Source of the DNA: Ralstonia sp. ASV6
Lineage (GTDB): Bacteria > Pseudomonadota > Gammaproteobacteria > Burkholderiales > Burkholderiaceae
Length of the DNA: 45,147 nt
Assembly (NCBI RefSeq): GCF_016429285.1
Contig: NZ_JAELUI010000038.1
Coordinates: forward strand, 1 to 45,147
Reading direction: 5' to 3'
The notes under the pieces were generated by a model. It was not told where the DNA came from. It made no database searches and saw only the letters and a list, made by a program, of their open reading frames with translations. Below are positions 21,917 to 40,517 of the stretch, piece by piece (the first letter of the stretch is position 1; the number at the start of each line of letters is the position of its first letter). A program made the position numbers and the translations under genes.

Positions 21917-21940
21917 GTTCAAGGTCTGTACAACCTTCTG
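21917..21940 (+). promoter_or_regulatory. Flagellar upstream element, copy 1 (before fliM)
   Basis: The core reads GTTCAAGGTCTGTACAAC, followed by CTTCTG. It contains two near-identical half-sites, GTTCAAG and GTACAAC, with starts 11 bp apart. The outer AAGGT...ACCTT arms also form an inverted repeat. A -10-like GACAAT begins about 21 nt downstream (21962-21967), and the fliM ATG is 52 nt beyond the element. No good -35 is seen, which suits an activator-dependent promoter. Confidence 0.7.
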
Positions 21941-22035
21941 CGCCTTTGAGCATGGGCTGACGACAATGGCGCCATCCCACCCAAACGGAACCATGAACGT
22001 GCAGGCATTGCCCACTTCCTCCCGCAACGTGCAAC
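21917..22035 (+). repeat. Duplicated control region, copy A (element, leader and 5' end of fliM)
   Basis: This stretch and 25146-25275 are diverged direct repeats lying 3.2 kb apart. The upstream element is 22/24 identical, the leader is about two thirds identical over ~76 bp with one indel, and the shared ATGAACGTG start is followed by weaker matches including GCAACCCG. The equal distance from element to ATG in both copies shows common origin. Confidence 0.75.
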
Positions 22036-22844
22036 CCGCGGCGCAGATCGTGCTCGATCCGTGCACGCTGGGCCGGCCGTATCACCTGCTCGACGATGTC
22101 CTGCACGAGGTGCAGCGGTGCATCGACCACTATTTCCACGAGCGCTTCAACCTGCGTCGTGGCACCAAGTTCACGGCAACACACATCGCCATCGGTGCAT
22201 TTCGCCCACGCGATGCCGCCGGCTGGCACGCATATACGTCTGACAACGGGGCGATTGCGGTGCGCGCCACCCGCCACCTGATGCTTGCGCTGCTGGCGTG
22301 CCATTACGACACACCGTTCGATGCAGCCGCGTCGGCTGATCCGGGGCCGGAATCGGGCACGGAACGCCGCTTTGCCGCGCAAATGCACGGTGCACTGCTG
22401 ACCGCCTTCGCAACGGCCATTACCGGTGACCGGGCAGACGCGTTCTCCCCAACCACGGATGGGTCCCCCAGCGTGGGTGCGCGCGTTGTGCGCATCACGA
22501 TCCAGGAGCCCGCGCGCAACCTTTCAGGCGATCTCGAATTCGCACTGGACGACGCTTGGCTGATCCGCCTGTTTGCGCGGCTTGACGCACAGCGCCCGCA
22601 CGCAACGACGCCCGTTGCCGACGGCACGCCCGCTGGCGTGCGCATTCCGATGCAGCTCACCGTGCGCATGCTGACCAAAGACATGCCGTTGGACGACCTG
22701 CTCAAGCTGCGCAGCGGCGACGTGCTACCGGTACGCCTGCCCGAGACCGCTGAGGTGCTGGTGGGCGACGTCCGCCTCTATCGCGCCGCGCTTGCCGAGC
22801 AGCAAGGCGCTGTGTGCATCACCGCTTTCGAACCCGTGGAGTAA
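21993..22844 (+). CDS. fliM: FliM-like flagellar motor switch protein, lateral type
   Basis: This 283-residue protein is followed immediately by fliN. Its C-terminal ~70 residues form a SpoA (FliM/FliN C-terminal) domain: VRIPMQLTVRMLTKDMPLDD, LLKLRSGDVLPVRLPETAEV, LVGDVRLYRAALAEQQGAV. The first ~200 residues are a shortened middle domain with no strong match to the CheC-like fold of standard FliM. The N-terminal CheY-P-binding motif of canonical FliM (LSQDEIDALL) is absent; the protein begins MNVQALPTSSRNVQPAAQIV. It is shorter than the usual ~330 residues. This matches FliM-like proteins of lateral systems (LfiM). ATG 21993 was chosen because the duplicated copy of this leader has its ATG at the same place; ATG 21966 is in frame upstream. 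It is the first gene of the fliMNPQR-flhBA operon. Confidence 0.8.
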   Translation: MNVQALPTSSRNVQPAAQIVLDPCTLGRPYHLLDDVLHEVQRCIDHYFHERFNLRRGTKFTATHIAIGAFRPRDAAGWHAYTSDNGAIAVRATRHLMLALLACHYDTPFDAAASADPGPESGTERRFAAQMHGALLTAFATAITGDRADAFSPTTDGSPSVGARVVRITIQEPARNLSGDLEFALDDAWLIRLFARLDAQRPHATTPVADGTPAGVRIPMQLTVRMLTKDMPLDDLLKLRSGDVLPVRLPETAEVLVGDVRLYRAALAEQQGAVCITAFEPVE

Positions 22845-22852
22845 CCCAAGAC

Positions 22853-23197
22853 ATGACCTCGCACAACGACATCGACCTGGCCGCCGCACTGGATGAATTT
22901 GACATCGGCGACGAATCGCAAACCGCCGTGGAGGCTGCGCCGCAACGCGACCCGATGCGCATGCTGCGCCGCATTCCGGTGCGCCTGACGCTGGAAGTCG
23001 GCTCTGCCACCGTACCGCTGGCGGACCTGCTCACGTTCGAGCCCGGCTCGACCGTGGAGCTCGACCGCCTTGCGGGCGAACCGCTCGTCATCAAGGTCAA
23101 CGGCGCGCAAATCGGCACGGCAGAGGTTGTCGTGTCGGGCGAGCACTACGGCCTGCGGATCGTCGATCTGGACGATCTGAAATCTCTCGCCTCGTGA
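22853..23197 (+). CDS. fliN: Flagellar motor switch protein FliN
   Basis: This 114-residue protein ends in a SpoA domain (MRMLRRIPVRLTLEVGSATV, PLADLLTFEPGSTVELDRLA, GEPLVIKVNGAQIGTAEVVV, ending GLRIVDLDDLKSL), the standard FliN signature. The N-terminal ~35 residues are acidic and poorly conserved. FliN builds the lower C-ring with FliM and docks the FliH-FliI export ATPase. It starts 8 nt after the fliM stop, and its stop overlaps the fliP GTG start (GTGA). The length is normal for the family. Confidence 0.93.
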   Translation: MTSHNDIDLAAALDEFDIGDESQTAVEAAPQRDPMRMLRRIPVRLTLEVGSATVPLADLLTFEPGSTVELDRLAGEPLVIKVNGAQIGTAEVVVSGEHYGLRIVDLDDLKSLAS

Positions 23198-23988
23198 GCA
23201 CCATGACGGCCGCCCTGCTGACTTGCCAACCTGCGCGCCAGCCCGTGCGCCGCCGCGCGATCGCGTGCGCGGGCGCAGCACTGGTGGCACTCGCCCTGCC
23301 AACGCTTGCGCAGGCCGATGCGCTGACGCTCGCAACGAGCGGCGCAAATGGCCAAGGCTTCACTGTCAAGACGCAGATCCTCGTGTTGATGACGCTGCTC
23401 GGGTTGTTGCCCGCGCTGCTGATGACGATGACGAGCTTCCTGCGCTATGTGATCGTGCTATCGCTGCTCAAGCAAGCGCTTGGGCTTCAGCAGGGCCTGC
23501 CGGCGCGCATCGTGACCGGCGTCGCACTGGTGCTGACCATGCTGACCATGCGCCCGGTGGGCGAAGAGATCTGGCAGAAGGCATTCGTTCCGTATGATCA
23601 GAACAAGATCAGCATGCAGGTGGCGCTGCAGACGGCAGAGCAACCGCTCTCGCGCTTCATGCTGGCGCAAACCAACAAGGCCACGCTCGCACAAATGGCC
23701 AAGCTATCCGGCACCGAACACATTGAAAAGCCCGAAGCGCAGCCGTTCCTGGTCAAGCTGTCCGCATTCGTGCTGAGCGAGTTGAAGACCGCGTTCCAGA
23801 TCGGCGCCATGCTGTTCATTCCGTTCCTGGTCATCGACATCATCGTCGCCTCGGTCTTGATGGCAATGGGGATGATGATGCTGTCGCCGCTTGTGATTTC
23901 GCTACCGCTCAAGCTGCTGCTGTTCGTGCTGGTGGATGGCTGGTCGCTGACGGTCAATACACTCATCACCAGTGTGAGGGCGCTCTGA
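23194..23988 (+). CDS. fliP: Flagellar export-gate protein FliP
   Basis: This 264-residue protein has a cleavable signal peptide (RRRAIACAGAALVALALPTL, then AQA). The FliP core follows: VKTQILVLMTLLGLLPALLM, TSFLRYVIVLSLLKQALGLQ, ARIVTGVALVLTMLTMRPV, FVLSELKTAFQIGAMLFIPF, LVIDIIVASVLMAMGMMMLS and KLLLFVLVDGWSL. All family landmarks are intact. FliP forms the export gate with FliQ and FliR in the centre of the basal body. GTG 23194 overlaps the fliN stop; ATG 23203 is the alternative. No fliO gene separates fliN and fliP, unlike the enteric primary system. Confidence 0.97.
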   Translation: MSTMTAALLTCQPARQPVRRRAIACAGAALVALALPTLAQADALTLATSGANGQGFTVKTQILVLMTLLGLLPALLMTMTSFLRYVIVLSLLKQALGLQQGLPARIVTGVALVLTMLTMRPVGEEIWQKAFVPYDQNKISMQVALQTAEQPLSRFMLAQTNKATLAQMAKLSGTEHIEKPEAQPFLVKLSAFVLSELKTAFQIGAMLFIPFLVIDIIVASVLMAMGMMMLSPLVISLPLKLLLFVLVDGWSLTVNTLITSVRAL

Positions 23989-24260
23989 TGCTGACACCCG
24001 ATCTTGCCGCCAGCATGGCCATTGATGCATTGCGTCTGGTGCTGGTCATCATCCTGACGCTTATCACGCCGGGCCTGATTACCGGTGTGCTCGTCGCCCT
24101 ATTCCAGGCGGCGACGCAGATCAACGAGCAAACCATGAGCTTCCTGCCACGCCTGGTGGTGACGCTGCTGGCGCTGGCGCTGGCCGGCCCGTGGGTCGCA
24201 GACCGCGTGATGCACTACACGGTCGAGATCTTCGGCCGTGCCGCGCAACTGGCAGGCTGA
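23988..24260 (+). CDS. fliQ: Flagellar export-gate protein FliQ
   Basis: This 90-residue protein has two hydrophobic helices: ALRLVLVIILTLITPGLITG (with VLVALFQAATQINEQTMSFL) and PRLVVTLLALALAGPWVADR. ALFQAATQINEQTMSFLPR is the conserved centre of FliQ. Four FliQ subunits wrap the FliP-FliR gate. The start overlaps the fliP stop (TGATG), which implies coupled translation, and fliR begins 2 nt after its stop. Confidence 0.96.
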   Translation: MLTPDLAASMAIDALRLVLVIILTLITPGLITGVLVALFQAATQINEQTMSFLPRLVVTLLALALAGPWVADRVMHYTVEIFGRAAQLAG

Positions 24261-24262
24261 CG

Positions 24263-25057
24263 GTGGAAATCGCCTTCGCCAAGCTCTTGCCGCTTGCGAG
24301 CGCGATCGTCTGGCCGTTCTGCCGGATCGCCGCCGCGCTCACTGCGGCCCCCATGCTGGGCGAGGCGGCCGTTCCCCTGCGCATCCGCGCGCTGATTGCG
24401 CTGGTGCTTGCGCTCGTGGTGCAGCCGGCCATGCCGGCAATGCCTGCAATTGATCCAATGTCGATGCAAGGCGTGGTCGCCATGGCCGAGCAGGTGCTGA
24501 TTGGCGCGCTGCTCGGCTTTATGTTCCATCTCGTGCAGGCGGTGCTGCAGATGTTTGGCGCGGTGGTGTCGTCGCAGATGGGGCTGTCGATGGCTCAGAT
24601 CAACGATCCGTTGAGCGGGCAGATGACCGACGTGGTGACGAGCATGATGTATGTCGTGTTCATCCTGCTGTTCTTCGCCGTGGATGGTCATCTGGTCATC
24701 ACGCACGTACTCGCTCGCAGCTTTACCGTATGGCCGGTCGGCAGCTTTGCGTTTGACATGGAAGCGCTCAGGCGCCTGGCCTTTGCGGCGGGCTGGATGT
24801 TCTCAGCCGCCGTTGCGCTGATGCTGCCCGTGATGTTTGCCACGCTGGTGGTGCAAATCGGGCTGGGCCTGCTGAATCGCGCGGCCCCCTCACTCAACCT
24901 CTTCTCGCTCGGCTTTTCGGTGACGACGATGTTCGGCCTGCTGCTATTGACGCTGCTGCTGCCGTCGCTGCCGGACCACTACGGCCGGATGATCTCGCAT
25001 GTGCTGGATCTGTACGACCAATTGGCCATGCCGGTGGTGCCAGCCAAGCGCATGTGA
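24263..25057 (+). CDS. fliR: Flagellar export-gate protein FliR
   Basis: This 264-residue multi-pass membrane protein shows the FliR landmarks: VWPFCRIAAALTAAPMLGEA, VPLRIRALIALVLALVVQPA, MAEQVLIGALLGFMFHLVQA, GAVVSSQMGLSMAQINDPLS, ALMLPVMFATLVVQIGLGLL and NRAAPSLNLFSLGF. It completes the FliP5Q4R1 gate. GTG 24263, 2 nt after the fliQ stop, is the only start that fits the family; longer frames would run through fliQ. The following 258 bp to flhB hold no FliR extension but contain a second copy of the fliM control region. Confidence 0.96.
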   Translation: MEIAFAKLLPLASAIVWPFCRIAAALTAAPMLGEAAVPLRIRALIALVLALVVQPAMPAMPAIDPMSMQGVVAMAEQVLIGALLGFMFHLVQAVLQMFGAVVSSQMGLSMAQINDPLSGQMTDVVTSMMYVVFILLFFAVDGHLVITHVLARSFTVWPVGSFAFDMEALRRLAFAAGWMFSAAVALMLPVMFATLVVQIGLGLLNRAAPSLNLFSLGFSVTTMFGLLLLTLLLPSLPDHYGRMISHVLDLYDQLAMPVVPAKRM

Positions 25058-25145
25058 CGAGCCCAGCGCTCGACCGTGCGCCACACGCCACAATAAGCCC
25101 CCAATCAGGGCGCTTGCGCCACATGTAGAAGGTGCCTGCCCCTCC

Positions 25146-25169
25146 GTTCAAGGTCTGTCCAACCTTCTT
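25146..25169 (+). promoter_or_regulatory. Flagellar upstream element, copy 2 (before flhB)
   Basis: This site is 22/24 identical to the copy before fliM (GTTCAAGGTCTGTCCAAC core; the A at the 14th position is C). It lies 51 nt before the leader ATG at 25221, against 52 nt in copy 1, and GACAAT occurs at the matching -10 position. It implies an internal, co-regulated promoter for flhB-flhA. Confidence 0.68.
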
Positions 25170-25275
25170 AAGGTTCCGTCATGACACGTCGACAATGGTG
25201 CCAACTCACCAGATGGGGCCATGAACGTGTCGGTATTCCTCTCCTTCTTCATCAAGGCGCAACCCGTCATGCCAG
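25146..25275 (+). repeat. Duplicated control region, copy B (between fliR and flhB)
   Basis: This is the diverged partner of 21917-22035. It carries the upstream element, the CGACAATGG segment at the same spacing, and an ATGAACGTG start followed by residual fliM-like sequence (GCGCAACCCG). Confidence 0.72.
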
Positions 25276-25316
25276 CCATGCCGTCGATGTCGCCCACGTT
25301 GGCTAAGGGGGCCTGA
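25221..25316 (+). CDS. 31-codon leader ORF overlapping the flhB start, derived from the 5' end of fliM
   Basis: The frame opens at ATG 25221 and ends with TGA at 25314-25316; the last base of the TGA is the first base of the flhB ATG. The peptide begins MNVSVFLSFFIKAQPV and ends PTLAKGA. Its first codons (ATGAACGTG) and a later GCAACCCG line up with the start of fliM, in the same frame and at the same distance from the upstream element. It therefore looks like a remnant of a duplicated fliM start kept in frame with flhB. The flhB ribosome-binding site (AAGGGGG) lies inside it, so translation of the leader could open or block flhB translation. The alternative is a chance open frame with no product. 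Confidence 0.45.
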   Translation: MNVSVFLSFFIKAQPVMPAMPSMSPTLAKGA

Positions 25317-26452
25317 TGAGCCAGCAGTCCAACGGCGACAAGACCGAAAAAGCCACCCCGCAGAAGCTGCGCAAGGCCAAGAAAGAAGGCCAGGTGGCGC
25401 GCTCGCGCGACATTGGCACCGCAGTCGGCGTGCTGGTGGCGCTCAAGCTGATTGTCGTGCTCGCGCCTGGCTGGCTGATCGACCTGCGTCGGCTGTTCGC
25501 ACTGTCGTTTGCCGATCTGTCGGCCGACGGCGCACTGGGCGATACCGCTTCCATGCTGTTTCCGGCCACGCTGCTGCTCATTGGCAAGATGCTCGCGCCG
25601 CTGGTGGCGGTGCCAGCGGCGGTGATCATCGCCTCGATAGTGCCGGGCGGCTGGGTAATGAGCAGCAAGAACTTCATGCCGAAGATGAGCCGCATGAACC
25701 CGATTGAGGGGATCAAGCGGCTCGTGTCAGGCAAGCATTACATCCAGTTCGGTACGACGGTGGTGAAGGCGATGGCGTTGATCGCGACGCTGGTCATCGT
25801 CTGCCGCGTGAACCTGGTTGGCTTTGCCAAGCTGCAAGGCGCGCCGCTTGCCAACGCATTGGCCGGGGGTGCAGACCTGTTTCTGAATTCAGCGCTGGCG
25901 ATGGCCGGCATGCTCGTGCTGTTCGCGCTGATTGACGTGCCCGTGCAGTGGATGATCTTCATGCGCGGCCAGCGCATGAGCAAGCGCGACATCAAGGACG
26001 AAATGAAACAGTCCGAAGGCAAGCCGGAAGTGAAGAGCCGGATCCGTCAGATCCAGCGCCAGCTTGCACGCCAGGGCATCCGAAAGACCGTGCCGACGGC
26101 CGATGTGGTGGTAATGAACCCAACCCACTACGCCGTGGCGCTGAAGTACGACGAATCCAGGGCGCACGCCCCCTACCTTGTTGCAAAGGGCATCGACGAG
26201 ACTGCGCTCTTCATCCGCGACGTGGCGAAAGAACACGGCGTTGAGGTGATTGAATTGCCTCCGCTGGCGCGTGCGGTGTACCACACCAGCCAGGTGAACC
26301 AGCAGATTCCGGCCGCGCTGTATCGCGCCGTCGCCCAAGTGCTGACCTACGTGCTGCAGATCAAGGCGTTCCGCCACGGCAAGCGCGGCCTGGAGCCGAT
26401 GCTACCGAACCATTTCGATATTCCTGACCATTTGCAAAAGGCCCAATCCTGA
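25316..26452 (+). CDS. flhB: Flagellar export substrate-specificity switch FlhB
   Basis: This 378-residue protein begins with the family sequence GDKTEKATPQKLRKAKKEGQ and VARSRD. It has four membrane helices in the first ~220 residues and the cytoplasmic autocleavage motif NPTH at residues 268-271 in VVMNPTHYAVALKYD. Cleavage between Asn and Pro lets the secretion apparatus switch from hook to filament export. The C-terminal domain continues AHAPYLVAKGIDETALFIRD and IELPPLARAVYHTSQVNQQI, all typical. The start overlaps the leader ORF stop, and the stop overlaps the flhA start (TGATG), so flhB and flhA are translationally coupled. Confidence 0.97.
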   Translation: MSQQSNGDKTEKATPQKLRKAKKEGQVARSRDIGTAVGVLVALKLIVVLAPGWLIDLRRLFALSFADLSADGALGDTASMLFPATLLLIGKMLAPLVAVPAAVIIASIVPGGWVMSSKNFMPKMSRMNPIEGIKRLVSGKHYIQFGTTVVKAMALIATLVIVCRVNLVGFAKLQGAPLANALAGGADLFLNSALAMAGMLVLFALIDVPVQWMIFMRGQRMSKRDIKDEMKQSEGKPEVKSRIRQIQRQLARQGIRKTVPTADVVVMNPTHYAVALKYDESRAHAPYLVAKGIDETALFIRDVAKEHGVEVIELPPLARAVYHTSQVNQQIPAALYRAVAQVLTYVLQIKAFRHGKRGLEPMLPNHFDIPDHLQKAQS

Positions 26453-28554
26453 TGAACGCACTCGCCCCCTACCTGGGTATGCTCAAGCGGATGAAGTTCG
26501 GCGTGCCGCTTGCCGTGTTCGCCATCCTTGCGATGGTGATCCTGCCGCTGCCGCCGATCGCGCTGGACATGATGTTCACGTTCAACATCGTGCTGGCCAT
26601 CGTCGTCGTGATGGTGGCCGTCACCGTCAAGCGGCCGCTCGACTTCTCGGCATTCCCGACCATCATCCTGGCCGCCACGCTGATGCGGTTGACACTGAAC
26701 GTGGCCTCCACCCGCGTGGTGCTGCTCAACGGCCACACGGGCACGGCCGCGGCCGGTCAGGTGGTGGAGTCGTTCGGTAACGTGGTGATCGGCAACAACT
26801 TCGTGGTCGGCCTGGTGGTGTTCGTGATCCTGATGATCATCAACTTCGTCGTGGTGACCAAAGGTGGCGAGCGGATCTCGGAAGTGTCGGCACGCTTTAC
26901 GCTTGATGCGCTACCCGGCAAGCAGATGGCCATCGATGCGGATCTGAACGCTGGCGTCATCACGCAGGAGCAGGCCCAGAAGCGCCGCAAGGACGTCACC
27001 TCCGAAGCCGACTTCTACGGCGCAATGGACGGTGCCTCGAAGTTTGTGCGTGGGGACGCCATCGCCGGCATTCTGGTGCTCGTCATCAACCTGATCGGCG
27101 GTCTGGTGATTGGCGTGATGATGCACGACCTGTCCACCGCCGACGCCTTCCGCCAATACGCACTGCTGACGATCGGTGACGGCCTGGTTGCGCAAATTCC
27201 TGCGCTGCTGCTGTCGGCCGCCGCTGCGGTGATCGTCACCCGGATCAACGACTCGCGCGATTTCGAACAACAAGTCGGCCAGCAGTTGTTGGCTTCGCCC
27301 GTTGTACTGTTCAGCGCCGCTGCCCTGATGGCTGCGCTGGGCCTGATTCCGGGCATGCCGACGCTGGTGTTCCTGGGCTTTGCGGCTGTGCTGGGCTATG
27401 TGGGCTGGAAAATGGCGCGGCGCCCCTCTCCGGCGGAAGAGGAAAGCGCCAGCGAAACCGCTCGCACGATGGAGGCCGCCCTGGCCGCCCCGCGTGAGGA
27501 AACGCTGGACTGGAGCAGCCTGCCGTACGTGGATGCGCTCTCGGTGTCGCTGGGTTACAAGCTCGTACAGCTCGTAGACCGTACACAAGGTGCGCCGCTC
27601 GTGCGCCGCCTGCAGGGCACGCGCCAGAGCCTGTCAGAATCGCTCGGCTTTCTGCTGCCACCCATTGGCGCGCGTGACGACATGAGCCTGCCGCCTGCCG
27701 GCTACGCCATCATGCTCAACGGCACCGCACTGGCCCAAGCGCAGGTGCAGCCCGGCAAGATGATGGCCATTCCGTCACCCACCGTGTACGGCGAGCTCGA
27801 TGGCACGCCTGGCGTGGACCCGGCCTACGGCATGCCCGTGACCTGGATCGAACCCGAACAGAAGGCACATGCGCTCGGCCTCGGCTACCAAGTGGTCGAT
27901 TGCGCCACGGTCATCGCCACGCACGCCAGCAAGCTGGTGCGCGAAGCCCTGCCCGAGCTGTTCAGCTACGACAACGTCACGGCCATCATCGAGCGTCTGA
28001 CCACCATTGCACCAGTGTTGAGCGATGCCTTGGGCAAGGCGCTGACGCACAGCCAACTGCGCAAGGTCTTCCGAACGCTGCTGGCTGAGAACGTGTCGAT
28101 CAAGGACATCGAGACTGTGGCCGCCACGCTGGTGGAGGCATCCGAGACCACCAAGGAACCGTTGCTGCTTGCTGCCGAGGTCCGCTGCGCGCTACGCCGC
28201 CAGATCGTGGCGGGGCTCAACGGCCAGCAAGCGGAGCTCAAGGGCTTCAGCCTGACGACCGAACTAGAGAACATCCTGTTGAGTGCGCTCAGCCGTTCGG
28301 AGCAATCCGGCGTGCGCGCCCCGATCGACAACTTCCCGGTCGAGCCGAATGTGCTCTCGCAACTGCAGACGCACATGCCCGCCGTGACCGAGCAGATGAA
28401 GCAGATGGGCCTGACCCCGCTGCTTCTGGTGATTCCGCGTATCCGGCCGATACTCGCGCGTTACGCCAAGCTGTTTGCACCAGGGCTGGCCGTGCTGTCG
28501 TACAACGAAATTCCGGAGAACAAGGAAGTCAGCGTCGTTGGCGCGCTGGGGTAA
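26452..28554 (+). CDS. flhA: Flagellar export-gate protein FlhA
   Basis: This 700-residue protein has a membrane half (residues ~15-330) with the FHIPEP-family segments VKRPLDFSAFPTIILAATLM, RLTLNVASTRVVLL, RFTLDALPGKQMAIDADLNA, ASKFVRGDAIAGILVLVINL and YALLTIGDGLVAQIPALLLS. A linker (AEEESASETARTMEAALAAP) leads to the large cytoplasmic nonamer-forming domain. FlhA accepts export chaperone complexes and couples proton flow to protein export. The length matches the family (about 690-700). It is the last gene of the operon and is followed by a strong terminator. Confidence 0.97.
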   Translation: MNALAPYLGMLKRMKFGVPLAVFAILAMVILPLPPIALDMMFTFNIVLAIVVVMVAVTVKRPLDFSAFPTIILAATLMRLTLNVASTRVVLLNGHTGTAAAGQVVESFGNVVIGNNFVVGLVVFVILMIINFVVVTKGGERISEVSARFTLDALPGKQMAIDADLNAGVITQEQAQKRRKDVTSEADFYGAMDGASKFVRGDAIAGILVLVINLIGGLVIGVMMHDLSTADAFRQYALLTIGDGLVAQIPALLLSAAAAVIVTRINDSRDFEQQVGQQLLASPVVLFSAAALMAALGLIPGMPTLVFLGFAAVLGYVGWKMARRPSPAEEESASETARTMEAALAAPREETLDWSSLPYVDALSVSLGYKLVQLVDRTQGAPLVRRLQGTRQSLSESLGFLLPPIGARDDMSLPPAGYAIMLNGTALAQAQVQPGKMMAIPSPTVYGELDGTPGVDPAYGMPVTWIEPEQKAHALGLGYQVVDCATVIATHASKLVREALPELFSYDNVTAIIERLTTIAPVLSDALGKALTHSQLRKVFRTLLAENVSIKDIETVAATLVEASETTKEPLLLAAEVRCALRRQIVAGLNGQQAELKGFSLTTELENILLSALSRSEQSGVRAPIDNFPVEPNVLSQLQTHMPAVTEQMKQMGLTPLLLVIPRIRPILARYAKLFAPGLAVLSYNEIPENKEVSVVGALG

Positions 28555-28573
28555 GACGCCGGTCAGGACCAGC

Positions 28574-28616
28574 ATGCAAAAGGCCCGCTGCAGCAATGCC
28601 GCGGGCCTTTTTGCAT
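28574..28616 (+). terminator. Rho-independent terminator after flhA
   Basis: The left arm at 28574-28588 (ATGCAAAAGGCCCGC) pairs with 28601-28616 (GCGGGCCTTTTTGCAT) apart from one bulged T. The loop is 12 nt, and a run of five T lies in the 3' arm. Confidence 0.85.
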
Positions 28617-28687
28617 GGGTGCGATGGACGCAGGTTCGCTATCGTGCGGGGCTGGGCTGGCTGAAGCGGATCGCATGCGCGCCAGCG

Positions 28688-30437: not shown

Positions 30438-30499
30438 CGCCGATGTCTCCTTTCGGGAAGTGGATCTCCCCGTCAGAGTCACTGATTCACAAGCGACGC

Positions 30500-30531
30500 T
30501 GAACAATGTTCAACAGAATCTTGATGATCAA
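30500..30531. promoter_or_regulatory. Two adjacent palindromes upstream of the transporter gene
   Basis: TGAACAATGTTCA (30500-30512) and TTGATGATCAA (30521-30531) are both perfect odd-length palindromes. They lie 63-94 bp upstream of the transporter ATG and 39 bp from the lafW-like stop codon. They look like operator sites for the transporter gene; the regulator is unknown. Confidence 0.4.
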
Positions 30532-32589: not shown

Positions 32590-32599
32590 GGTGTTCTCC

Positions 32600-33940: not shown

Positions 33941-33982
33941 GATGTACGTGCTCCGTTATCCGTTGAATGCGCCCAAAGCGCG

Positions 33983-34321
33983 TTAGTCGTTCGTGCTCGC
34001 GGTCTCGCGCGGTAGCATCTGTGCGACCAGCGTGTCGGCAATGCCGAACGCCCGCTGATGCGCAATCGCATCAGCCACAACCCGGTTTGCGTAGTCGAGC
34101 ATCGAATCGCTGGACTTGTCATCAAAGCCGTTGTCCGCCTTGAGCTGGTCAGTTGCCTTCTTCATCTCGTTGAGCATCTGGGCGATGAACATGCCCTCAA
34201 ACTGCACGGCAGCGGCTTCAATTTTCTGGCGATCCGTGGCTTCGGCCGGGCGGATAGCGCTCGCATCGGCGCCTGTAGCGCTATTGGACGCGCGTGAAAT
34301 CGGCATGAAATCGTGTGTCAT
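33983..34321 (-). CDS. flgJ: FlgJ rod-binding protein without muramidase domain
   Basis: This 112-residue protein contains only the N-terminal FlgJ rod-capping domain (KIEAAAVQFEGMFIAQMLNE, MKKATDQLKADNGFDDKSSD, SMLDYANRVVADAIAHQRAF, GIADTLVAQML). Enteric FlgJ is ~313 residues with a C-terminal glucosaminidase. Here that domain is a separate gene (41406-42206), about 7 kb away beyond flgA. The single-domain form is known in other phyla and needs a peptidoglycan hydrolase in trans. It starts 14 nt after the flgI stop. Confidence 0.95.
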   Translation of the reverse strand: MTHDFMPISRASNSATGADASAIRPAEATDRQKIEAAAVQFEGMFIAQMLNEMKKATDQLKADNGFDDKSSDSMLDYANRVVADAIAHQRAFGIADTLVAQMLPRETASTND

Positions 34322-34335
34322 TGCTTGGTTCCTCG

Positions 34336-35463
34336 TCAGATCACCACCAGCTCGCCCGTCAGCGCGCCGGCTTCGGACAGCGCCTGCAGAATCGCCATCA
34401 GGTCATCAGGAGTCGCGCCGGTGCGGTTGATCGTGTCGACAATCGCCTGCAAGCTTGCACCGGACTTCCACTGGAAGGCGTTGCCGCCGCGCTGCGAGAC
34501 ATCAATCTCGCTAACCGGCGCGGCAACCGTGGTGCCACGCGCAAATTCGTTCGGCTGGCTGACTGCCGTGCCTTCGGCAATCGTCACCTTCAGCGCCCCG
34601 TGCGAAACAACAGCGGGCTTGACAGTCACCCCTTGACTGATAACGACGGTGCCTGTGCGCGAGTTAAATACGATGCGCGGCGCCACCTCTGTTTGCCCAA
34701 CCTTCAGTGCGCGCACCTTGGCGACAAACGCAACGCGCTGACTCGGCCCCTGAGGCGCGGCCACGTCTACCGAGGTCGCATCTGCCGTGCTCGCCACTTC
34801 GCCACCGAGTGCCTGGTTGATGGCATCGACAATGCGTGACGCCGTCTGGAAATCCGGCCGCTTGAGGTTCAGGCGCACGCTGGGCGTTTCTGCAAAATCC
34901 GTCGCCACTTCGCGCTCGATCGTTGCTCCTTTCGGAATGCGGCCCGTGGTGGGCGTATTGATGGTGACGCTCGACCCGCTACGGCCCTGTGCATTTAGGC
35001 CTGGAATCACCAGGTTGCCCTGCGCCAGCGCATAGACATCGCCGTCAGCCGCGCGCAGCGGCGTCATCAGCAGCGTACCGCCGCGCAAGCTCTTGGCATC
35101 GCCCAGCGACGAGACGGTCACGTCAATCGTCTGACCGCGCCGATAGCCCGGCGGAAAGGTCGCACTCACCATGACAGCCGCCGCGTTGCGCGAGCGCAGG
35201 TTGACGTTCTCCGGCAGACGCGTGCCGAACTGCTTGAGCATATTCGCCAGCGACTGCGTGGTGTACTTGGCTTGCGTGCCGTCACCCGACCCAGCCAGCC
35301 CAACGACGATACCATAGCCGACGAGCGCGTTTTCACGCACGCCCTCTACATCGACGAGAGCGCCGACCGTTTGTGCATGCACGTTGCGCACAGGACCGAA
35401 AACCGTTGCGGTCATCGCAATCAAACAGGCGGCGGCAACACTGGCGAGGCGGGTCAGTTTCAT
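34336..35463 (-). CDS. flgI: Flagellar P-ring protein FlgI
   Basis: This 375-residue periplasmic protein has a signal peptide (residues ~1-30, ending NVHA) and the FlgI landmarks: GVRENALVGYGIVVGLAGSG, TKYTTQSLANML-like KYTTQSLANMLKQFGTRLPE, RSRNAAAVMVSATFPPGYRR, IDVTVSSLGDAKSLRGGTLL and TPLRAADGDVYALAQGNLVI. The C-terminal ATPDDLMAILQALSEAGALT is also conserved. It assembles as the ring in the peptidoglycan layer. ATG 35463 follows an AAAGGA ribosome-binding site; a start at 35499 would overlap flgH. Confidence 0.97.
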   Translation of the reverse strand: MKLTRLASVAAACLIAMTATVFGPVRNVHAQTVGALVDVEGVRENALVGYGIVVGLAGSGDGTQAKYTTQSLANMLKQFGTRLPENVNLRSRNAAAVMVSATFPPGYRRGQTIDVTVSSLGDAKSLRGGTLLMTPLRAADGDVYALAQGNLVIPGLNAQGRSGSSVTINTPTTGRIPKGATIEREVATDFAETPSVRLNLKRPDFQTASRIVDAINQALGGEVASTADATSVDVAAPQGPSQRVAFVAKVRALKVGQTEVAPRIVFNSRTGTVVISQGVTVKPAVVSHGALKVTIAEGTAVSQPNEFARGTTVAAPVSEIDVSQRGGNAFQWKSGASLQAIVDTINRTGATPDDLMAILQALSEAGALTGELVVI

Positions 35464-35483
35464 AGCAAATCCTTTGAATAGGC

Positions 35484-36155
35484 TCAGAACGGCATCCACG
35501 GGCTGTTAAAGAAACGCGTCAGCCAGCCGGGTTGGTTGGCGTCGGCCAGCGAGCCGCGGCCCGCGTAGTGGATCCGCGCATTGGCCACACGCTGCGACGA
35601 CACGCGGTTGTTTGCGTCAATATCGGCCGCGCGCACATAGCCCGACAGCCGCACGGTCTCTTCCCCCTGGTTCAGCACGAGGCGTTTTTCACCACGCACC
35701 TGCAGCAGGCCGTTGGGCAGCACACGCTGCACCACCACGGTGACGGAGCCACGCAGCATGTTCTGCTGCGAGCTTGAGCCCGTACCGTCAAAGCCGCGCT
35801 TGGCACCCAAAGTGGCATCCAACGGCAGCTCCACGCCAAAGACCGATGGTTTGCTCGCACTTACGCTGCTGTTCTTGCCGACTTGCGTGCCGCTCTTCTT
35901 GCTCGCCTGCGTGGTTTCGTCCAGCTCGACGGTAAGCACATCGCCGGAGCGGAATGCGCGTATATCGGAGGTGAGCGACCACGCTTGATCCGGCACCAGC
36001 ACGCCACCCGCCGACCCACGGCGCACCTCGAATGCGGTGTCCGGCATGTCGTCCACTTCTGGCGAACGGTCGTAGTCGTGCAGTGGCCCCGTGGCGCAAC
36101 CGGCCAGCACGGCCAGCGCAGCACATGCAGCGAGCAAGCGGGCGGCGTTCATCAT
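35484..36155 (-). CDS. flgH: Flagellar L-ring lipoprotein FlgH
   Basis: This 223-residue lipoprotein has a lipobox LAGC (C20) after a short hydrophobic signal. The FlgH body includes SLTSDIRAFRSGDVLTVELD, ETTQASKKSGTQVGKNS, GTGSSSQQNMLRGSVTVVVQ, RVLPNGLLQVRGEKRLVLNQ and GEETVRLSGYVRAADIDANN. It builds the outer-membrane bushing around the rod. The start overlaps the flgG stop (ATGA), so the two are translationally coupled. Confidence 0.97.
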   Translation of the reverse strand: MMNAARLLAACAALAVLAGCATGPLHDYDRSPEVDDMPDTAFEVRRGSAGGVLVPDQAWSLTSDIRAFRSGDVLTVELDETTQASKKSGTQVGKNSSVSASKPSVFGVELPLDATLGAKRGFDGTGSSSQQNMLRGSVTVVVQRVLPNGLLQVRGEKRLVLNQGEETVRLSGYVRAADIDANNRVSSQRVANARIHYAGRGSLADANQPGWLTRFFNSPWMPF

Positions 36156-36937
36156 CGTGCCGCCTGGGAGAGGTACTGCATCATGTTGTCCGCAGCGGAC
36201 AACACCTTGGTGTTCATCTCATAGGTGCGCTGCGCAGCGATCATCTCGACCATTTCTTCCACAGCCGTCACGTTCGAGCCTTCCAGCGCGCCCTGCTTGA
36301 GCGTGCCCAACCCGTCGCGCCCCGGCTCGCCTTCGTTCGGTGGGCCACTGGCACTGGTTTCGGCGTACAGGTTGTCACCCAGTGCGAGCAGGCCGGCCGG
36401 GTTCAAGAAGTTGGCGAGCTGCAGCTGGCCGATCTCGGTCGGCGTCGTGTTTGCGCCAGTCGTGACTGACACAACACCGTTCTCGCCAATCGTCAGGCCC
36501 GTTACATCGGCGGGAATGTCGATCGATGGCACGATCGGCAGCCCCTGCCCATTGGTCAGACGCCCTTCCTGGTTGCGCCGGAGCTGGCCCGCACGGGTAT
36601 AGCCCACCTCGCCGTTGGCCATTTCGACCTGCAGGAAGCCGTTACCAACGATGGCTACGTCGTGCGTCTGACCAGTCGTCTGCAGAGCACCGGAGGTGAA
36701 CACCTTCTGCGTACCGACCAGCCGGGTACCGTTGCCCAGTTGCACGCCCGGTGCCGTCGCGTTGTCCGCAACTTGCGCGCCCGGTTGTTGCTCGGTGCGA
36801 TAAAACAGATCTTCGAAGACCGCGCGATCGCGCTTGAAGCCGACCGTGTTGACGTTGGCCAGGTTGTTCGCGATTGTCTGCAGCTTCGATTCCTGCGCCT
36901 GAATGCCTGTTTTGCTGATCCACAATGCGGGATTCAT
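36152..36937 (-). CDS. flgG: Flagellar distal-rod protein FlgG
   Basis: This 261-residue rod protein begins MNPALWISKTGIQAQESKLQ and TIANNLANVNTVGFKRDRAV. It contains the FlgG-specific FEDLFYRTEQQPGAQ and GTRLVGTQKVFTSGALQTTG, and ends GSNVTAVEEMVEMIAAQRTY, EMNTKVLSAADNMMQYLSQA. It forms the distal rod that passes through the L and P rings. The length is that of the family (260). It overlaps flgH and follows flgF with a 45-nt gap. Confidence 0.97.
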   Translation of the reverse strand: MNPALWISKTGIQAQESKLQTIANNLANVNTVGFKRDRAVFEDLFYRTEQQPGAQVADNATAPGVQLGNGTRLVGTQKVFTSGALQTTGQTHDVAIVGNGFLQVEMANGEVGYTRAGQLRRNQEGRLTNGQGLPIVPSIDIPADVTGLTIGENGVVSVTTGANTTPTEIGQLQLANFLNPAGLLALGDNLYAETSASGPPNEGEPGRDGLGTLKQGALEGSNVTAVEEMVEMIAAQRTYEMNTKVLSAADNMMQYLSQAAR

Positions 36938-36982
36938 AGTTGACCTTTAGCGTTGTGTGTTGATTGGGTCGCCTGCATCCGC

Positions 36983-37708
36983 TTAACCGCGGATCAACCG
37001 GTTACCGGCGTCGGCCATTTCGTCCGCCACCTTGTAGAGCTTCATCTGCATTTCAAACGAGCGCGTGAGCGACATGGTCTGCATCATTTCCTCGACCGCA
37101 GACACGTTGCTGCCTTCCAGATGCCCGCCCTTGACGGCGACGTTGGCGTCCGCCCCGTACTCGGTGCCGCTGCGCGACACGATCAGGCCCTGCGCGTTCT
37201 TCATCAGGTCTGCCGGCTCGGGGTTCACCAGCAGCAGGCGCCCGACGTCTTGCGTGCCCTGCTCACCGGTGGCAACGATGGAAATCGTGCCGTCCGTGCC
37301 GATCGTCAGGGTGTCGTGCTCAGGCAGCACGATGGGGCCACCGTCGCCCAGCACCGTGCGGCCGTTCAGCGTCAGAGATCCATCGCCTTCGAGCCGAAGC
37401 GAGCCGGTGCGCGTGTAAGCCACGCCGTCGTCGGTCTCCACCGCCAGATAACCGGCGCCGCTGATCGCCACGTCCAGCGCGCGGCCCGTCTCGTTAAGCT
37501 TGCCGGGCGTGTGGTCGACGTGCGTTGCCGTCAGCGCGGCGTGATGACGCGAGTCGTAGCCATAGCCCTGCGCTGCCTCACTGGTGACGGTCGCCAAATC
37601 GGCGCGAAAGCCCGCCGTCTGCGCGTTTGCCAGGTTGCCGGCCCGAACGTTGAGCGCGCGCAGCGAGTGGTCTGCGCCGGTCATCGCGGTATAGATAAAT
37701 GCATCCAT
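36983..37708 (-). CDS. flgF: Flagellar proximal-rod protein FlgF
   Basis: This 241-residue rod protein begins MDAFIYTAMTGADHSLRALN and VRAGNLANAQTAGFRADLAT, a typical FlgF start (rod motif with NLANAxTxGFR). The middle includes ALDVAISGAGYLAVETDDGV and YTRTGSLRLEGDGSLTLNGR. It ends SNVSAVEEMMQTMSLTRSFE, MQMKLYKVADEMADAGNRLI. It joins FlgB, FlgC and FlgG in the rod. It starts 4 nt after the flgE stop. Confidence 0.96.
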   Translation of the reverse strand: MDAFIYTAMTGADHSLRALNVRAGNLANAQTAGFRADLATVTSEAAQGYGYDSRHHAALTATHVDHTPGKLNETGRALDVAISGAGYLAVETDDGVAYTRTGSLRLEGDGSLTLNGRTVLGDGGPIVLPEHDTLTIGTDGTISIVATGEQGTQDVGRLLLVNPEPADLMKNAQGLIVSRSGTEYGADANVAVKGGHLEGSNVSAVEEMMQTMSLTRSFEMQMKLYKVADEMADAGNRLIRG

Positions 37709-37712
37709 CGCG

Positions 37713-38882
37713 TTACAGCGCCTGCATCAGCGTGCGCATCATTTCGTTCTCGGTGGACAGCACCTTCGAGTTGGCCTGGTAGTTCTGCTGCGCGCCCATC
37801 AGGTTCACCAGTTCGGAGGTCATGTCGACGTTCGACTGCTCGACCGCGCCCACGGCCAGCTTGCCCGCCATGCCCACACCCGCTGTGCCAAGCAGCGGCT
37901 CACCCGTAGCACCGCTGGCCTGCCAGGCTGAACCATCCACTGGCACCAGGCCGTTTTCATTCTGGAACGTAGCGATGGCCAGTTGACCCGCCGATAGCTT
38001 CTTGCCGTTGCTGTACTGCACCTGGATCGAGCCGTCTTCGGCCAGCGACACGCCCGTCACCGTGCCGGACTTGTAGCCGTCCGCGCGGTTCTTCGCGGTG
38101 CTCTGGTCTCCGCCAAACATGGTCGTGCCGGTGTAGCTGATGGCGATCGACAACGGCGCCGCGCCAGTCGGCGTGCCCAGGTCCAGATCCACGGAGCCGA
38201 TCGGCATGACCATCTTGCCCTCGGTGTCAAAGCTCAGGAATGTGGGCAGACCAACGTCTTCACCATCCATGGCGTAGTACACCTGCATATCGTTGCCGGC
38301 GCCCTTAACGAAGTACTGCGTCACGGTGTGCTCGCGGCCGAGCGAATCGGTCACGGTGGTGGCCGACATGCCGTTGTACGACTGCGGGTTGTCCTTATCG
38401 AATGGCGTGACGCTGGGCTCCTTCCAGTCGGCAGACATATTGCCGACGTACTCCAGTGAGCTGCTGGCCTCTGCGGGAATCCCGCCCGTGGGCACCGTCA
38501 GGTCGCCCAGCGCGCCGCTCTCGCCATAGCCCTGCACGCGACGAAGCATGAAGTCGACCACATTGCCGTCTTTATCGACGTCGAACATGCCGGCGCGCGA
38601 ATACACCATCGAGCCGTCGGTATCACGCGAGACAAAGAAGCCCTTGCCCGAGATGGCGGCGTCCATGCCGCGGCCGGTGGGCAGGAGGTTGCCGCTGATG
38701 CTCATCGACTGCGAGGTCGAGCCGATCGACACACCCGATGGCATGGCGTTGATGTAGCTCGACGCAAAGTTCGCTCGGCCGGACTTGAAGCCAACCGTAC
38801 CGCTGTTGGCGATGTTGTTGCTGATCTGATTGAGCTGGCCGTTGATTGCATTGATGCCAGCAAGTGCGATGTTGAAGCTCAT
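37713..38882 (-). CDS. flgE: Flagellar hook protein FlgE
   Basis: This 389-residue hook protein begins MSFNIALAGINAINGQLNQI and SNNIANSGTVGFKSGRANFA. It has the hook-specific middle domain (VDLDLGTPTGAAPLSIAISY) and ends MTSELVNLMGAQQNYQANSK, VLSTENEMMRTLMQAL. The length is near the ~400 expected. It is exported through the flagellar gate and polymerises on the rod with the FlgD cap, whose gene overlaps its start (ATGA at 38879-38882). Confidence 0.97.
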   Translation of the reverse strand: MSFNIALAGINAINGQLNQISNNIANSGTVGFKSGRANFASSYINAMPSGVSIGSTSQSMSISGNLLPTGRGMDAAISGKGFFVSRDTDGSMVYSRAGMFDVDKDGNVVDFMLRRVQGYGESGALGDLTVPTGGIPAEASSSLEYVGNMSADWKEPSVTPFDKDNPQSYNGMSATTVTDSLGREHTVTQYFVKGAGNDMQVYYAMDGEDVGLPTFLSFDTEGKMVMPIGSVDLDLGTPTGAAPLSIAISYTGTTMFGGDQSTAKNRADGYKSGTVTGVSLAEDGSIQVQYSNGKKLSAGQLAIATFQNENGLVPVDGSAWQASGATGEPLLGTAGVGMAGKLAVGAVEQSNVDMTSELVNLMGAQQNYQANSKVLSTENEMMRTLMQAL

Positions 38883-39622
38883 GACAGGAACCTATTCAGA
38901 AAGGGGATGGGAAAGAGACCGTTTTCTCGCTCTTGCTCGTGGGCTTGTTCTTTCTTCTGCGGACGACCAAGGAAGCGGGTGATATCAGCGGTGTCAACGT
39001 CGCCAACGCCGGCAACAGACAGGATCACGCGGCCGTCGGCGCCTAGGCGCACGCTCTGCAGTTCTCCGGTCAGTTCAACGTCGGGCTTTTCGCCGGTGTC
39101 GGTCGATATGCGCACCTTGTAGTCGCCGGGCGGCAGATCATGTTCAGCCGGGTCGATCTCGAAATCGACCGTGCCGGCCTCGCGCGGGCCCAGCGGGATC
39201 TTGTGCTCTGTGCCGTCAGGGCCAGTCAGAATGAGCTCCACATCGCTGGCCGACGAGTCCAGCGTAAAGCCGCCGCGCACGGTCTCGCCATCCAGCTCGA
39301 CGGAATCGGCACGCACACGCACCAGCGAACCCACCTGCGAGCCAAGCGACACGACGAGCATGCTTTCCTGCATGGCGGCCGTCGCGGCGCTGATCTGAGC
39401 CAGCGTCTGCATGGCTTCCACCTGGCTCATCTGCGCAAACTGCGTGACGAACTGGCTGGCTTCCATCGGGGCGAGCGGATCCTGATTCTGGATCTGCGCG
39501 ATCAGCAGTGTGGTGAACATGTTCGACAGGCTGCCCGAATCTTTGTTGGCGCCCGGCAGCGATGCACCGTCACCCACGCCTGCGCCGTTGTTGGCTTGCG
39601 TGCCGTTGTTTTGGATATTCAT
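38879..39622 (-). CDS. flgD: Flagellar hook-cap protein FlgD
   Basis: This 247-residue protein has the FlgD N-terminal motif MFTTLLIAQIQNQDPLAPME and ASQFVTQFAQMSQVEAM. A Tudor/FnIII-like middle follows (GSLVRVRADSVELDGETVRG, DVELILTGPDGTEHKIPLGP, PPGDYKVRISTDTGEKPDVE). The first ~30 residues are disordered (Asn/Gly-rich), as expected for the export signal. It caps the growing hook. The C-terminal charged tail (QKKEQAHEQERENGLF) is unusual in composition but close to the family length. Confidence 0.94.
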   Translation of the reverse strand: MNIQNNGTQANNGAGVGDGASLPGANKDSGSLSNMFTTLLIAQIQNQDPLAPMEASQFVTQFAQMSQVEAMQTLAQISAATAAMQESMLVVSLGSQVGSLVRVRADSVELDGETVRGGFTLDSSASDVELILTGPDGTEHKIPLGPREAGTVDFEIDPAEHDLPPGDYKVRISTDTGEKPDVELTGELQSVRLGADGRVILSVAGVGDVDTADITRFLGRPQKKEQAHEQERENGLFPIPFLNRFLS

Positions 39623-39627
39623 CCTGG

Positions 39628-40026
39628 TCAGCCCTCGCCCATGCGCAGCAAGTCTTGCTGCATGCCCTTGAGGCGCGTGAGCACCTCGGCGTTGGTGGAG
39701 AAAGCGCGCGACGCGGCCATCATGTCGGTCATTTCCTCGACCGGGCTGACGTTCGAGTAGTACACCATGCCGTTTTCATCGGCCAGCGGGTGCCCAGGCT
39801 CGTGCCGCGTCGTGAGCGCGTCGTCGGTGGAAATGACATCGAGCACCTGCACGCGCGCACCACCGTTCTCAAATACCGATGCGAACACCGGCTTGCGGGC
39901 GCGGTACGCAGTGTCTTCCGTACCGGACGTGCCTGCGTTGGCGAGGTTGCTTGCGATCGTGTTGAGCCGCACGGTCTGCGCGGTCATCGCCGAACCGGCG
40001 ATCTGTGAAATGTCTTTGAAGCTCAT
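39628..40026 (-). CDS. flgC: Flagellar proximal-rod protein FlgC
   Basis: This 132-residue rod protein begins MSFKDISQIAGSAMTAQTVR and LNTIASNLANAGTSGTEDTA, with the FlgC feature YRARKPVFASVF. It ends SPVEEMTDMMAASRAFSTNA, EVLTRLKGMQQDLLRMGEG. The length is normal (~134). The start overlaps the last base of the flgB stop (TGATG), so the two rod genes are coupled. Confidence 0.96.
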   Translation of the reverse strand: MSFKDISQIAGSAMTAQTVRLNTIASNLANAGTSGTEDTAYRARKPVFASVFENGGARVQVLDVISTDDALTTRHEPGHPLADENGMVYYSNVSPVEEMTDMMAASRAFSTNAEVLTRLKGMQQDLLRMGEG

Positions 40027-40394
40027 CAGATATTCCCGGTGATCGCGGCCTTCAGGCCTTTGATCTTCATGTTGACGAAGGTCAGGCTCGCCTGGAAATC
40101 GGCCGTGTTCTGCGAGAACGCGGCTTGCTCGACGCCGAGCTCCACCGTGTTGCCGTCTTGCGAGGGCCGGCTCGGCACGCGGTACTTCGGGTCGCTACCG
40201 CCGAACTGCAACGCGGCCTCGAACCCATCGTTGGCGAGTGCCTGGTCCAGACTCGCGCGGAAATCGAGATCGCGCGCCTGATAACCGGGCGTCGACTCGT
40301 TGGCGAGGTTGGATGCGAGGAGCTTCGTGCGTTCCGCGCGCACTTTCAATGCCGCGGGGTGGACGCCGAGCGCGTTTTCCAAATTCAGTCCCAT
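40026..40394 (-). CDS. flgB: Flagellar proximal-rod protein FlgB
   Basis: This 122-residue rod protein has LENALGVHPAALKVRAERTK and LLASNLANESTPGYQARDLD, the FlgB wording with NLANxxTPGYxARDxDF. It continues with FRASLDQALANDGF and ends NTADFQASLTFVNMKIKGLK, AAITGNI. ATG 40394 is preferred by family alignment; an ATG at 40454 gives an unconserved extension. A GGAGG lies upstream at a somewhat long spacing. It is the first gene of the flgBCDEFGHIJKL-lafW operon and is read from the flgB-flgA intergenic region, which carries the third copy of the upstream element. Confidence 0.94.
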   Translation of the reverse strand: MGLNLENALGVHPAALKVRAERTKLLASNLANESTPGYQARDLDFRASLDQALANDGFEAALQFGGSDPKYRVPSRPSQDGNTVELGVEQAAFSQNTADFQASLTFVNMKIKGLKAAITGNI

Positions 40395-40494
40395 CTTGGC
40401 TGCTTGCCTCCGGAAGAAGCCGCACAGCGCTGGCGCTGGCGGCGGATTGGTCATCGGACAGACAGGAGGTTATGCGGATCGAAAATGCGCGGCG

Positions 40495-40517
40495 AAGAAG
40501 TTGTACAGACGTTGAAC
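40495..40517 (-). promoter_or_regulatory. Flagellar upstream element, copy 3 (flgB-flgA intergenic, inverted)
   Basis: Read on the - strand toward flgB, the site is GTTCAACGTCTGTACAAC followed by TTCTT and CGCC. It matches copy 1 at 17 of the 18 core positions and in most flanking bases. The half-sites are GTTCAAC and GTACAAC, with starts 11 bp apart. A CATAAC hexamer about 21 nt downstream falls at the place of the GACAAT seen in copies 1 and 2. The element lies 101 bp from the flgB start and 96 bp from flgA, so it could serve both. Confidence 0.72.

Follow-up and report, generated by a model that had tools for sequence, protein, structure and literature searches.

How a bacterium that carries two sets of flagellar genes controls the second of them is the question raised by a stretch of DNA from Ralstonia sp. 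ASV6. The stretch, hereafter called the window, comprises 45,147 bases of contig C352 in a 5.9-Mb draft genome (G000; 5,897,561 bases, 718 contigs) and carries a lateral flagellar gene cluster. The accessible text of PMC5773237 left the control of the second flagellum in Burkholderia-type bacteria open and suggested shared polar regulators. An earlier note on the window had described a bipartite element with the core GTTCAASGTCTGTACAAC before three flagellar operons, and had taken it for the site of a master activator private to this system. The present analysis leads to a more specific answer: the element is very probably the operator of an OmpR/PhoB-family response regulator (RR) encoded at 20017-20760, which, together with a CHASE2 sensor histidine kinase (17687-20020), would serve as master activator of the lateral system.

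Copies of the Element in the Window and the Genome

The element is real. Its core is present at 21917-21934 (+), 25146-25163 (+, with one change) and 40500-40517 (-), exactly as the earlier note had placed it, and the 7-bp halves and their 11-bp period are likewise correct. With up to three mismatches allowed, the window holds three matches compared with 0.02 expected, and 0 of 100 shuffled sequences reach three. Across the whole of G000, the same search returns eight places (the three window copies and five with three mismatches), and a control with the core written backwards returns three. A relaxed core, GTTCAANNTCTGTNCAAC, which was loosened after two relatives had been seen, matches 12 places, of which the three window copies have no mismatch, none has one and nine have two; its backwards control matches four. 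The earlier note had named many equally good matches scattered in coding DNA as an outcome that would refute its proposal; the G000 matches other than the three window copies are at background level.

Scoring of the surrounding promoter gave the same picture. With a 51-column matrix built only from the sites before fliM, fliE, flgB and flhB, the three window copies, all of which are part of the matrix, score 36.9-39.7. The nine two-mismatch places and one further core match in G000 score at most 0.2, the rest of the promoter being missing there. When genome-wide pattern matches were scored in three genomes, seven sites (all in the matrix) reached 34-43 and the other 17 at most 0.2. Burkholderia latens and Burkholderia sp. 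MS389 each have a site before fliM and one before flgB, with no other match at zero or one mismatch in either genome. A search of 20 related genomes with the original core at up to two mismatches found one match in each of six, compared with five in four genomes for the backwards control. Two same-genus genomes have a two-mismatch match to the core in common, ATTCAAGGTCTGGACAAC (G003:C4:1031094 and G012:C212:76738).

Promoter Layout across Seven Lateral Systems

The comparison covers 20 promoters (fliM, fliE, flgB and one duplicate before flhB) from seven lateral systems: the window, B. latens, MS389, G483, G540, G704 and G700. Considering the near pairs MS389/B. latens and G483/G540, these amount to about 13 independent promoters. 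The initial alignment of the sites was done by eye, and the 27-bp spacing described below had been noticed by the time the matrix was constructed; it was the matrix, not this alignment, that yielded the fliE site of G704 and the sites before flagellin-methylase genes.

All 20 promoters have a common layout, in which a pair of 11-bp units precedes a weak -35 and a -10 (NANNNT) begins exactly 27 bp after the second half-site. Eight columns are invariant in 19/19 aligned promoters: T1, A4, T12, A15, T19, T22, A46 and T50. Those in the operator form a direct repeat, T1/T12 and A4/A15 being 11 apart and T8 (17/19) pairing with T19 (19/19). T22 opens the weak -35 (TCGCCN), 23 bases before the start of the -10. 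The -10 has A46 as its second base and T50 as its last; it reads SANAAT for fliM and fliE and TANNCT for flgB. The 20th promoter (G704 fliE), outside the alignment, was picked by a matrix built without fliE sites; it has the same layout and keeps the invariant columns. Both the direct-repeat half-sites, 11 bp centre to centre, and the fixed promoter-proximal position (columns 46 and 50 at 27 bp), which suits sigma-70 activation, are features of OmpR/PhoB-type operators. The promoters of the window read as follows.

21917..21934, + strand: fliM operator, GTTCAAG-GTCT-GTACAAC, two 7-bp half-sites 11 bp apart; in-register sites lie before fliM in six other systems
21939..21944, + strand: putative weak fliM -35, TGCGCC (TCGCCN in the comparative consensus), from column conservation
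21962..21967, + strand: fliM -10, GACAAT, 27 bp downstream of the core; its A and T columns are invariant in 19/19 aligned promoters
21993..22844, + strand: fliM, first gene of fliMNPQR (Pfam FliMN_C)
25146..25163, + strand: operator before flhB, GTTCAAG-GTCT-GTCCAAC, of the duplicated fliM promoter
25191..25196, + strand: -10 of this duplicate, GACAAT, again 27 bp downstream of the core
25221..25316, + strand: leader reading frame of 31 codons that seems to derive from the start of fliM and shares one base with the flhB start codon
25316..26452, + strand: flhB, with relatives at 64-75% identity by tblastn
40500..40517, - strand: flgB operator, GTTCAAC-GTCT-GTACAAC, conserved in B. latens and Burkholderia sp. 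MS389
40490..40495, - strand: putative weak -35 of the flgB promoter, TCGCCG, from the alignment
40467..40472, - strand: flgB -10, TAACCT, 27 bp downstream of the core; TANNCT stands there in 6/6 flgB promoters
40026..40394, - strand: flgB, with a presumed start at MGLNLE as in B. latens

This alignment revises several details of the earlier description. The -10, which had been placed about 21 nt downstream of the core, starts 27 nt after it; for flgB, the proposed CATAAC (25 bp) lies 2 nt out of register and was dropped for TAACCT, given that TANNCT is kept in all six flgB promoters. A -35, said not to be visible, emerges in weak form by comparison. The idea that an activator replaces the -35 is revised too: the site is of activator type, but it adjoins a weak -35 on its upstream side, at about -57 to -40 from the predicted transcript start. 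In the flgB-flgA interval, a TATAAT before flgA (window 40579-40584, +), also present in B. latens and MS389, points away from the flgB promoter.

The copy before flhB is, by its sequence, a duplicate of the fliM promoter. From core base 1 to past the fliM start codon, 86/122 positions are identical between the two regions, with the core itself kept at 17/18, and the window thus has two independent sites and one duplicate. The gap between fliR and flhB, taken between tblastn match ends, is 261 bp in the window and 17-77 bp in the six other systems, which therefore have no room for such an insert. The earlier note had also expected further sites before the fliE operon, missing from the window. 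This operon lies on contig C97 of G000, with a diverged copy of the same layout upstream, as in the relatives.

Three other readings of the promoter were considered and rejected. Control of the early promoters by sigma-28 was considered because a few -10s resemble GCCGATAA, but by eye no TAAA is suitably spaced and the columns are not conserved. A LuxR-type palindrome does not fit conserved columns that repeat directly; an inverted repeat at the window fliE, AATGTTC-CATT-GAACATT, recurs with one mismatch in B. latens and was not seen in G483, G540 or G704. The element was also, on general resemblance, not taken for an FlhDC box.

Tests with Held-Out Operons

For each promoter, the matrix was rebuilt with the operon in question held out, and the best match in the 250 bp upstream was compared with dinucleotide shuffles; many gene starts used here are tblastn match ends. 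The best upstream match was the site in 20/20 cases, with 0-7 of 1000 shuffles reaching its score. A previous version of the test set the sites against 1,065,822 background positions, among them the known sites, and between 14 and 120 of these reached the score. With the held-out matrices, 26 other upstream regions were scored as controls and none stood out (lowest, 15 of 500 shuffles). These controls were taken from several systems and lie before flagellin, RR, motA, flgA, flgM, flgK, flgL, fliA, fliD and fliK genes and one more, including one primary fliF, the most approximate of the gene starts. The statement that no copy precedes the flagellin or motA thus holds in the five and four systems tested, respectively.

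These tests bear on the possibility that recent duplication and chance similarity account for the copies, with no regulatory element involved. Two of the three window copies do have one origin. Nevertheless, the fliM, fliE and flgB promoters are conserved across systems whose regulators are only about 50% identical, and the held-out results speak against coincidence, making this explanation extremely improbable.

Over 32 loci, the 51-column matrix gives 35 matches above 9, namely the 20 sites and 15 others. Seven of the others exceed 20: two before flagellin lysine-N-methylase genes, one before a GspE-type ATPase gene, one before an LPMO10/GbpA gene, one before a pseudopilin-like frame (by eye) and two beside paralogous RR genes. 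The predicted operator-promoters upstream of the methylase (FliB) genes are at L161:3774 and L159:12958, in two genomes (G540, G483), and the gene products score 233.5 (G540) and 216.5 (G483) bits with NCBIfam NF038110, compared with a cut-off of 85. A match of 16.4 at window 30475-30525 (-), before a sodium:dicarboxylate symporter gene between the flagellar blocks, was left out as near background.

The Linked Response Regulator and Its Proposed Kinase Partner

Adjoining the flagellin gene of the window are two genes that together make a plausible source of the activator.

20017..20760, - strand: OmpR/PhoB-family RR, proposed activator (Pfam Response_reg PF00072 and Trans_reg_C PF00486), with the start presumed from relatives
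17687..20020, - strand: CHASE2 sensor histidine kinase, proposed partner of the RR (Pfam CHASE2, HisKA, HATPase_c)

With its receiver and winged-helix domains, the RR is the kind of protein expected at an OmpR/PhoB-type operator. Its best NCBIfam model is PhoB TIGR02154 at 154.6 bits; since this is far below the cut-off of 296.2, the RR is not classed as PhoB. The activator need not be an unknown FlhDC-like factor, as the linked RR and CHASE2 kinase are the likely regulator. The earlier proposal of a master-activator site accordingly holds for an activator-type site of early operons, confined to the system, with this RR as the probable activator.

RR and kinase homologues lie beside the flagellin-fliM block in 7/7 systems, all of them found through the regulator; the relatives' kinases were compared by tblastn only. 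In a scan of named genomes, the RR had three relatives; two are close (72-73%, MS389 chromosome 3 and B. latens) and sit in clusters of the same type. Among 398 genomes of the family, 25 contain an RR match at E <= 1e-52: the window's own, those of MS389 and B. latens (73-74%), and the rest at 48-54%. Family and same-genus samples were drawn evenly from larger groups, and counts hold for the genomes drawn. Among ten loci of the RR branch, three (G483, G700 contig 16 and G704) have the RR, a kinase homologue, flagellin and fliM together, and G540 provides a fourth such locus; in the remaining seven, the RR is not flanked by a lateral cluster, and at one of these (L131) export genes of another kind are present. 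G700 contributes a fliM promoter only, fliE and flgB not being found in the 78 kb of contig examined. Kinase matches, at differing E limits, occur in 19/65, 2/144 and 1/58 genomes of three genera, most of the 19 being non-flagellar, at about 40%.

A further link between regulator and site comes from the stretch of the RR that, going by PhoB, corresponds to the recognition helix. It reads ATY[MI]TRVRN where the sites are GTTCAA and ATY[VI]SKLR where they are NTTNAG (G483, G540, G704); in G700, the site GTTCAGG goes with ATYVSRLRN. Helix and site letters thus appear to covary in the expected place.

This bears on the possibility that an unlinked regulator, for example a different OmpR-family RR, recognises the sites while the linked RR acts elsewhere. 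G000 has 53 matches to the RR, OmpR-family regulators are many, their boxes are alike and linkage is not proof. Against this stand the presence of RR and kinase in the cluster in every system (with the ascertainment given above), the joint variation of site and helix letters, and the 15 other same-genus genomes, where none of the matches listed exceeds 38% identity to the RR. An unlinked regulator is quite improbable.

Paralogous Regulators near Chitin and Secretion Genes

Nine further loci with paralogous RRs were scored with the matrix. Seven have matches above 12, nine matches in all (13-22), within about 20 kb of the RR and not always adjacent, with no lateral flagellar genes beside those RRs. 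The proteins after four of the nine are two LPMO10/GbpA proteins, one GH18 chitinase and one PKD-domain protein, and a similar 11/27 layout is seen before LPMO10/GbpA, GH18 chitinase and type II secretion system ATPase genes at L129, L130, L171-L173 and L178. This suggests a chitin regulon with the same promoter grammar; the matches count as support, not proof. In their position near chitinase and LPMO genes, the paralogues are reminiscent of the CdsS/CdsR-like chitin two-component regulators of Burkholderia, whose targets differ from those of the lateral flagellar RR. The description of the element as private is therefore to be qualified: it is confined to the lateral system in G000, but its layout is common to six other lateral systems and, on weaker evidence, goes with paralogous regulators in the vicinity of chitin and secretion genes.

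RR and kinase homologues are also present in G482 and G754. In G482 (L131), the pair stands beside genes that read, by tblastn resemblance and by eye, as SctV and SctN of an injectisome; no strong site was found at that locus (best 13.7).

Weighing the Assignment

Several observations weigh against pairing the element with the linked RR. All seven systems were found via the regulator, making the co-occurrence of regulator and site no independent test. The covariation of helix and site rests on two or three events, and in an RR tree of 32 rows, 10/28 inner branches are open, leaving a single clade of flagellar RRs unsettled. No site stands out upstream of the RR gene itself in the held-out test. 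The fliE sites are modest in the window, B. latens and MS389 (6-7 of 1000 shuffles), where the first half-site is poor (ATCAATG), and the weak cases are matched by 34 and 120 of the 1,065,822 background positions. The chitin-related matches (13-22) overlap the background, three at 13-16 lying away from these RRs. An eighth lateral-type arrangement, G774 (L175), has RR and kinase next to flhBA and no match above 12 in 9.8 kb; its contig is short and lacks fliM, fliE and flgB. Finally, the FlhDC of the polar system could act upstream.

A stronger version of the last point, in which the FlhDC of the polar (primary) system itself binds the elements and drives the lateral operons, is quite improbable on an analysis that covered part of the primary flagellar genes. 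FlhDC is not an OmpR-type regulator, and the layout is that of OmpR/PhoB-family boxes. In G000, the element is confined to lateral operons, and the composite motif is also present close to paralogous RRs with no lateral flagellum encoded beside them. In favour of FlhDC, G000 encodes one FlhC and one FlhD, both on contig C200, and the accessible text of the B. dolosa study, in which no lateral flhDC was found, proposed shared regulators (PMC5773237). Enteric FlhDC class II promoters, too, are described in the available text of PMC4183435 as activator-dependent sigma-70 promoters of early flagellar operons with poor matches to the -10 and -35 hexamers. In this they resemble the promoters as proposed here; the difference is that the FlhDC genes of G000 lie only on another contig.

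Proposed Mechanism and the Lateral Flagellar Cluster

With the linked RR as activator, the layout points to the following course of events. The RR, phosphorylated presumably by the CHASE2 kinase, would bind as a head-to-tail dimer to the two tandem 11-bp units at about -57 to -40 from the predicted transcript start, each half-site having the form NTTNARN (here GTTCAAS and GTNCAAC). At that place it would meet sigma-70 RNA polymerase. Neither the -35 (TCGCCN) nor the -10 (NANNNT) of these promoters is good, and little activity is expected of them in the absence of the RR. It would thereby switch on the fliM, fliE and flgB operons and, in G000, also flhB through the duplicated fliM promoter. The transcription unit that begins with fliE seems to extend through fliA, motAB and flgMN and would supply sigma-28 and its anti-sigma factor, the flagellin then being transcribed from a sigma-28-type promoter. 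As to the signal sensed by the kinase, surface or chitin-related cues are our guess.

The window holds a flagellin gene, fliMNPQR, flhBA, flgB-L, flgA, flgM/N and motAB, named by Pfam for the proteins profiled and by reading and tblastn for the rest. C352 and C97 together carry a second flagellar set (fli, flh, flg, mot) beside the primary one, as expected of a lateral system, and a second, divergent fliF (about 30-35% identity) is on C520. The remaining features on which the proposed cascade draws are as follows.

20988..21845, + strand: lateral-type flagellin (Pfam Flagellin_N/C), with no operator upstream
20887..20915, + strand: possible sigma-28-type flagellin promoter, TTTAA-N16-GTCGTCTT, by eye
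42609..42896, - strand: flgM, anti-sigma-28 factor (Pfam FlgM)
44914..45147, - strand: 3' portion of the lateral fliA gene (sigma-28), truncated where the contig ends; the 5' part is on contig C97

Among 27 NCBIfam families, the flagellin scores best with LafA_2 NF038071, at 333 bits below the cut-off of 365, and thus does not pass the LafA model. A scripted search for the E. coli-type sigma-28 consensus upstream of flagellins gave no convincing match; by eye, a TTTAA-N15/16-GYCGTYYT element, perhaps a variant sigma-28 promoter, lies upstream of flagellins in several systems.

The B. latens FliA, which passes NCBIfam FliA_WhiG, matches at 71% over residues 170-242 in the window and at 69% over residues 1-207 on L094 (C97) by tblastn. 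Because fliA spans the C97/window contig break, fliE...fliL, fliA, motA, motB, flgM and flgN all point the same way, as they do in B. latens; the fliE promoter may also serve fliA, the extent of the operon being predicted from this order. Compared with B. latens, the kinase-RR-flagellin-fliM-flhA block (window 17687-28554) is separated from fliE-fliA, which is mainly on C97 (L094).

Control of the LafK type, in which a sigma-54 activator governs the lateral flagella as in Vibrio, is close to negligible in probability. The sigma-54-activator strings GESGTGK and GETGTGK, which are short motifs only, occur in none of the six frames of 16 cluster loci, where two stray GAFT strings were seen. In addition, the conserved columns fit a sigma-70 -10 and include no GG/GC pair at -24/-12. 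According to the available text of PMC3930126, LafK acts together with sigma-54, and in V. parahaemolyticus the fliM operon does not depend on LafK. The Vibrio system is alike in being a second flagellum with its own gene set, but differs in its activator, no sigma-54 activator having been seen in the 16 loci here.

Comparison with Known Regulators

The operator type itself is already known. The Pho box overlaps the -35 and lies about one turn closer to the -10 than the element described here. For ArcA, the accessible text of PMC3798270 describes a site of 18 bp in which two direct repeats follow each other at 11 bp, a spacing equal to that of PhoB boxes, and states that OmpR and PhoB recruit RNA polymerase directly. 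The element is like these E. coli boxes in its two 11-bp-spaced half-sites within 18 bp, and differs in its half-site letters (NTTNARN) and in a -10 that lies 27 bp from the second half-site.

OmpR-type flagellar regulators are likewise known in Alphaproteobacteria, Rem being one of them. FtcR and ActR are described as others in the accessible text of PMC8639532, which calls FtcR a master regulator. These proteins have in common with the present RR that an OmpR/PhoB-type regulator acts, or is predicted to act, on flagellar genes; the difference here lies in the lateral flagella of Burkholderiaceae, the CHASE2 kinase partner and the recognisable operator-promoter layout. In B. dolosa, the accessible part of PMC5773237 places lafA between fliM and a 'CheY-like response regulator', with no lateral flhDC. 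A response regulator beside the flagellin was thus placed there independently, but no regulator-site pair is named in that part of the paper. No description of such a pair was found in the literature searched, from which subscription papers were largely absent, and the regulator-operator pair of Burkholderiaceae lateral flagella would accordingly be a new variant.

Implications

On a broader scale, we lean slightly towards the view that one CHASE2-kinase/OmpR-type family with a fixed promoter grammar (two 11-bp units, 27 bp, NANNNT) has been deployed on separate surface-related modules in Burkholderiaceae, comprising lateral flagella, a chitinase/LPMO/type II secretion set and possibly an injectisome, and that the lateral flagellum moves between genomes with a private circuit directly dependent on neither FlhDC nor LafK. 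A plasmid collection contained no match to the RR (E limit 1e-45), and blastn of the fliM-flhB region against it gave only short matches, covering at most 12% of the query among the matches listed.

The outcome is a named candidate pair, with three or four target promoters and predictions at the level of single bases, and a matrix that can be used to find further targets. If the assignment is true, a betaproteobacterial two-component master activator would join the known flagellar regulators, and the locus would show how a patchily distributed flagellum brings its own control.

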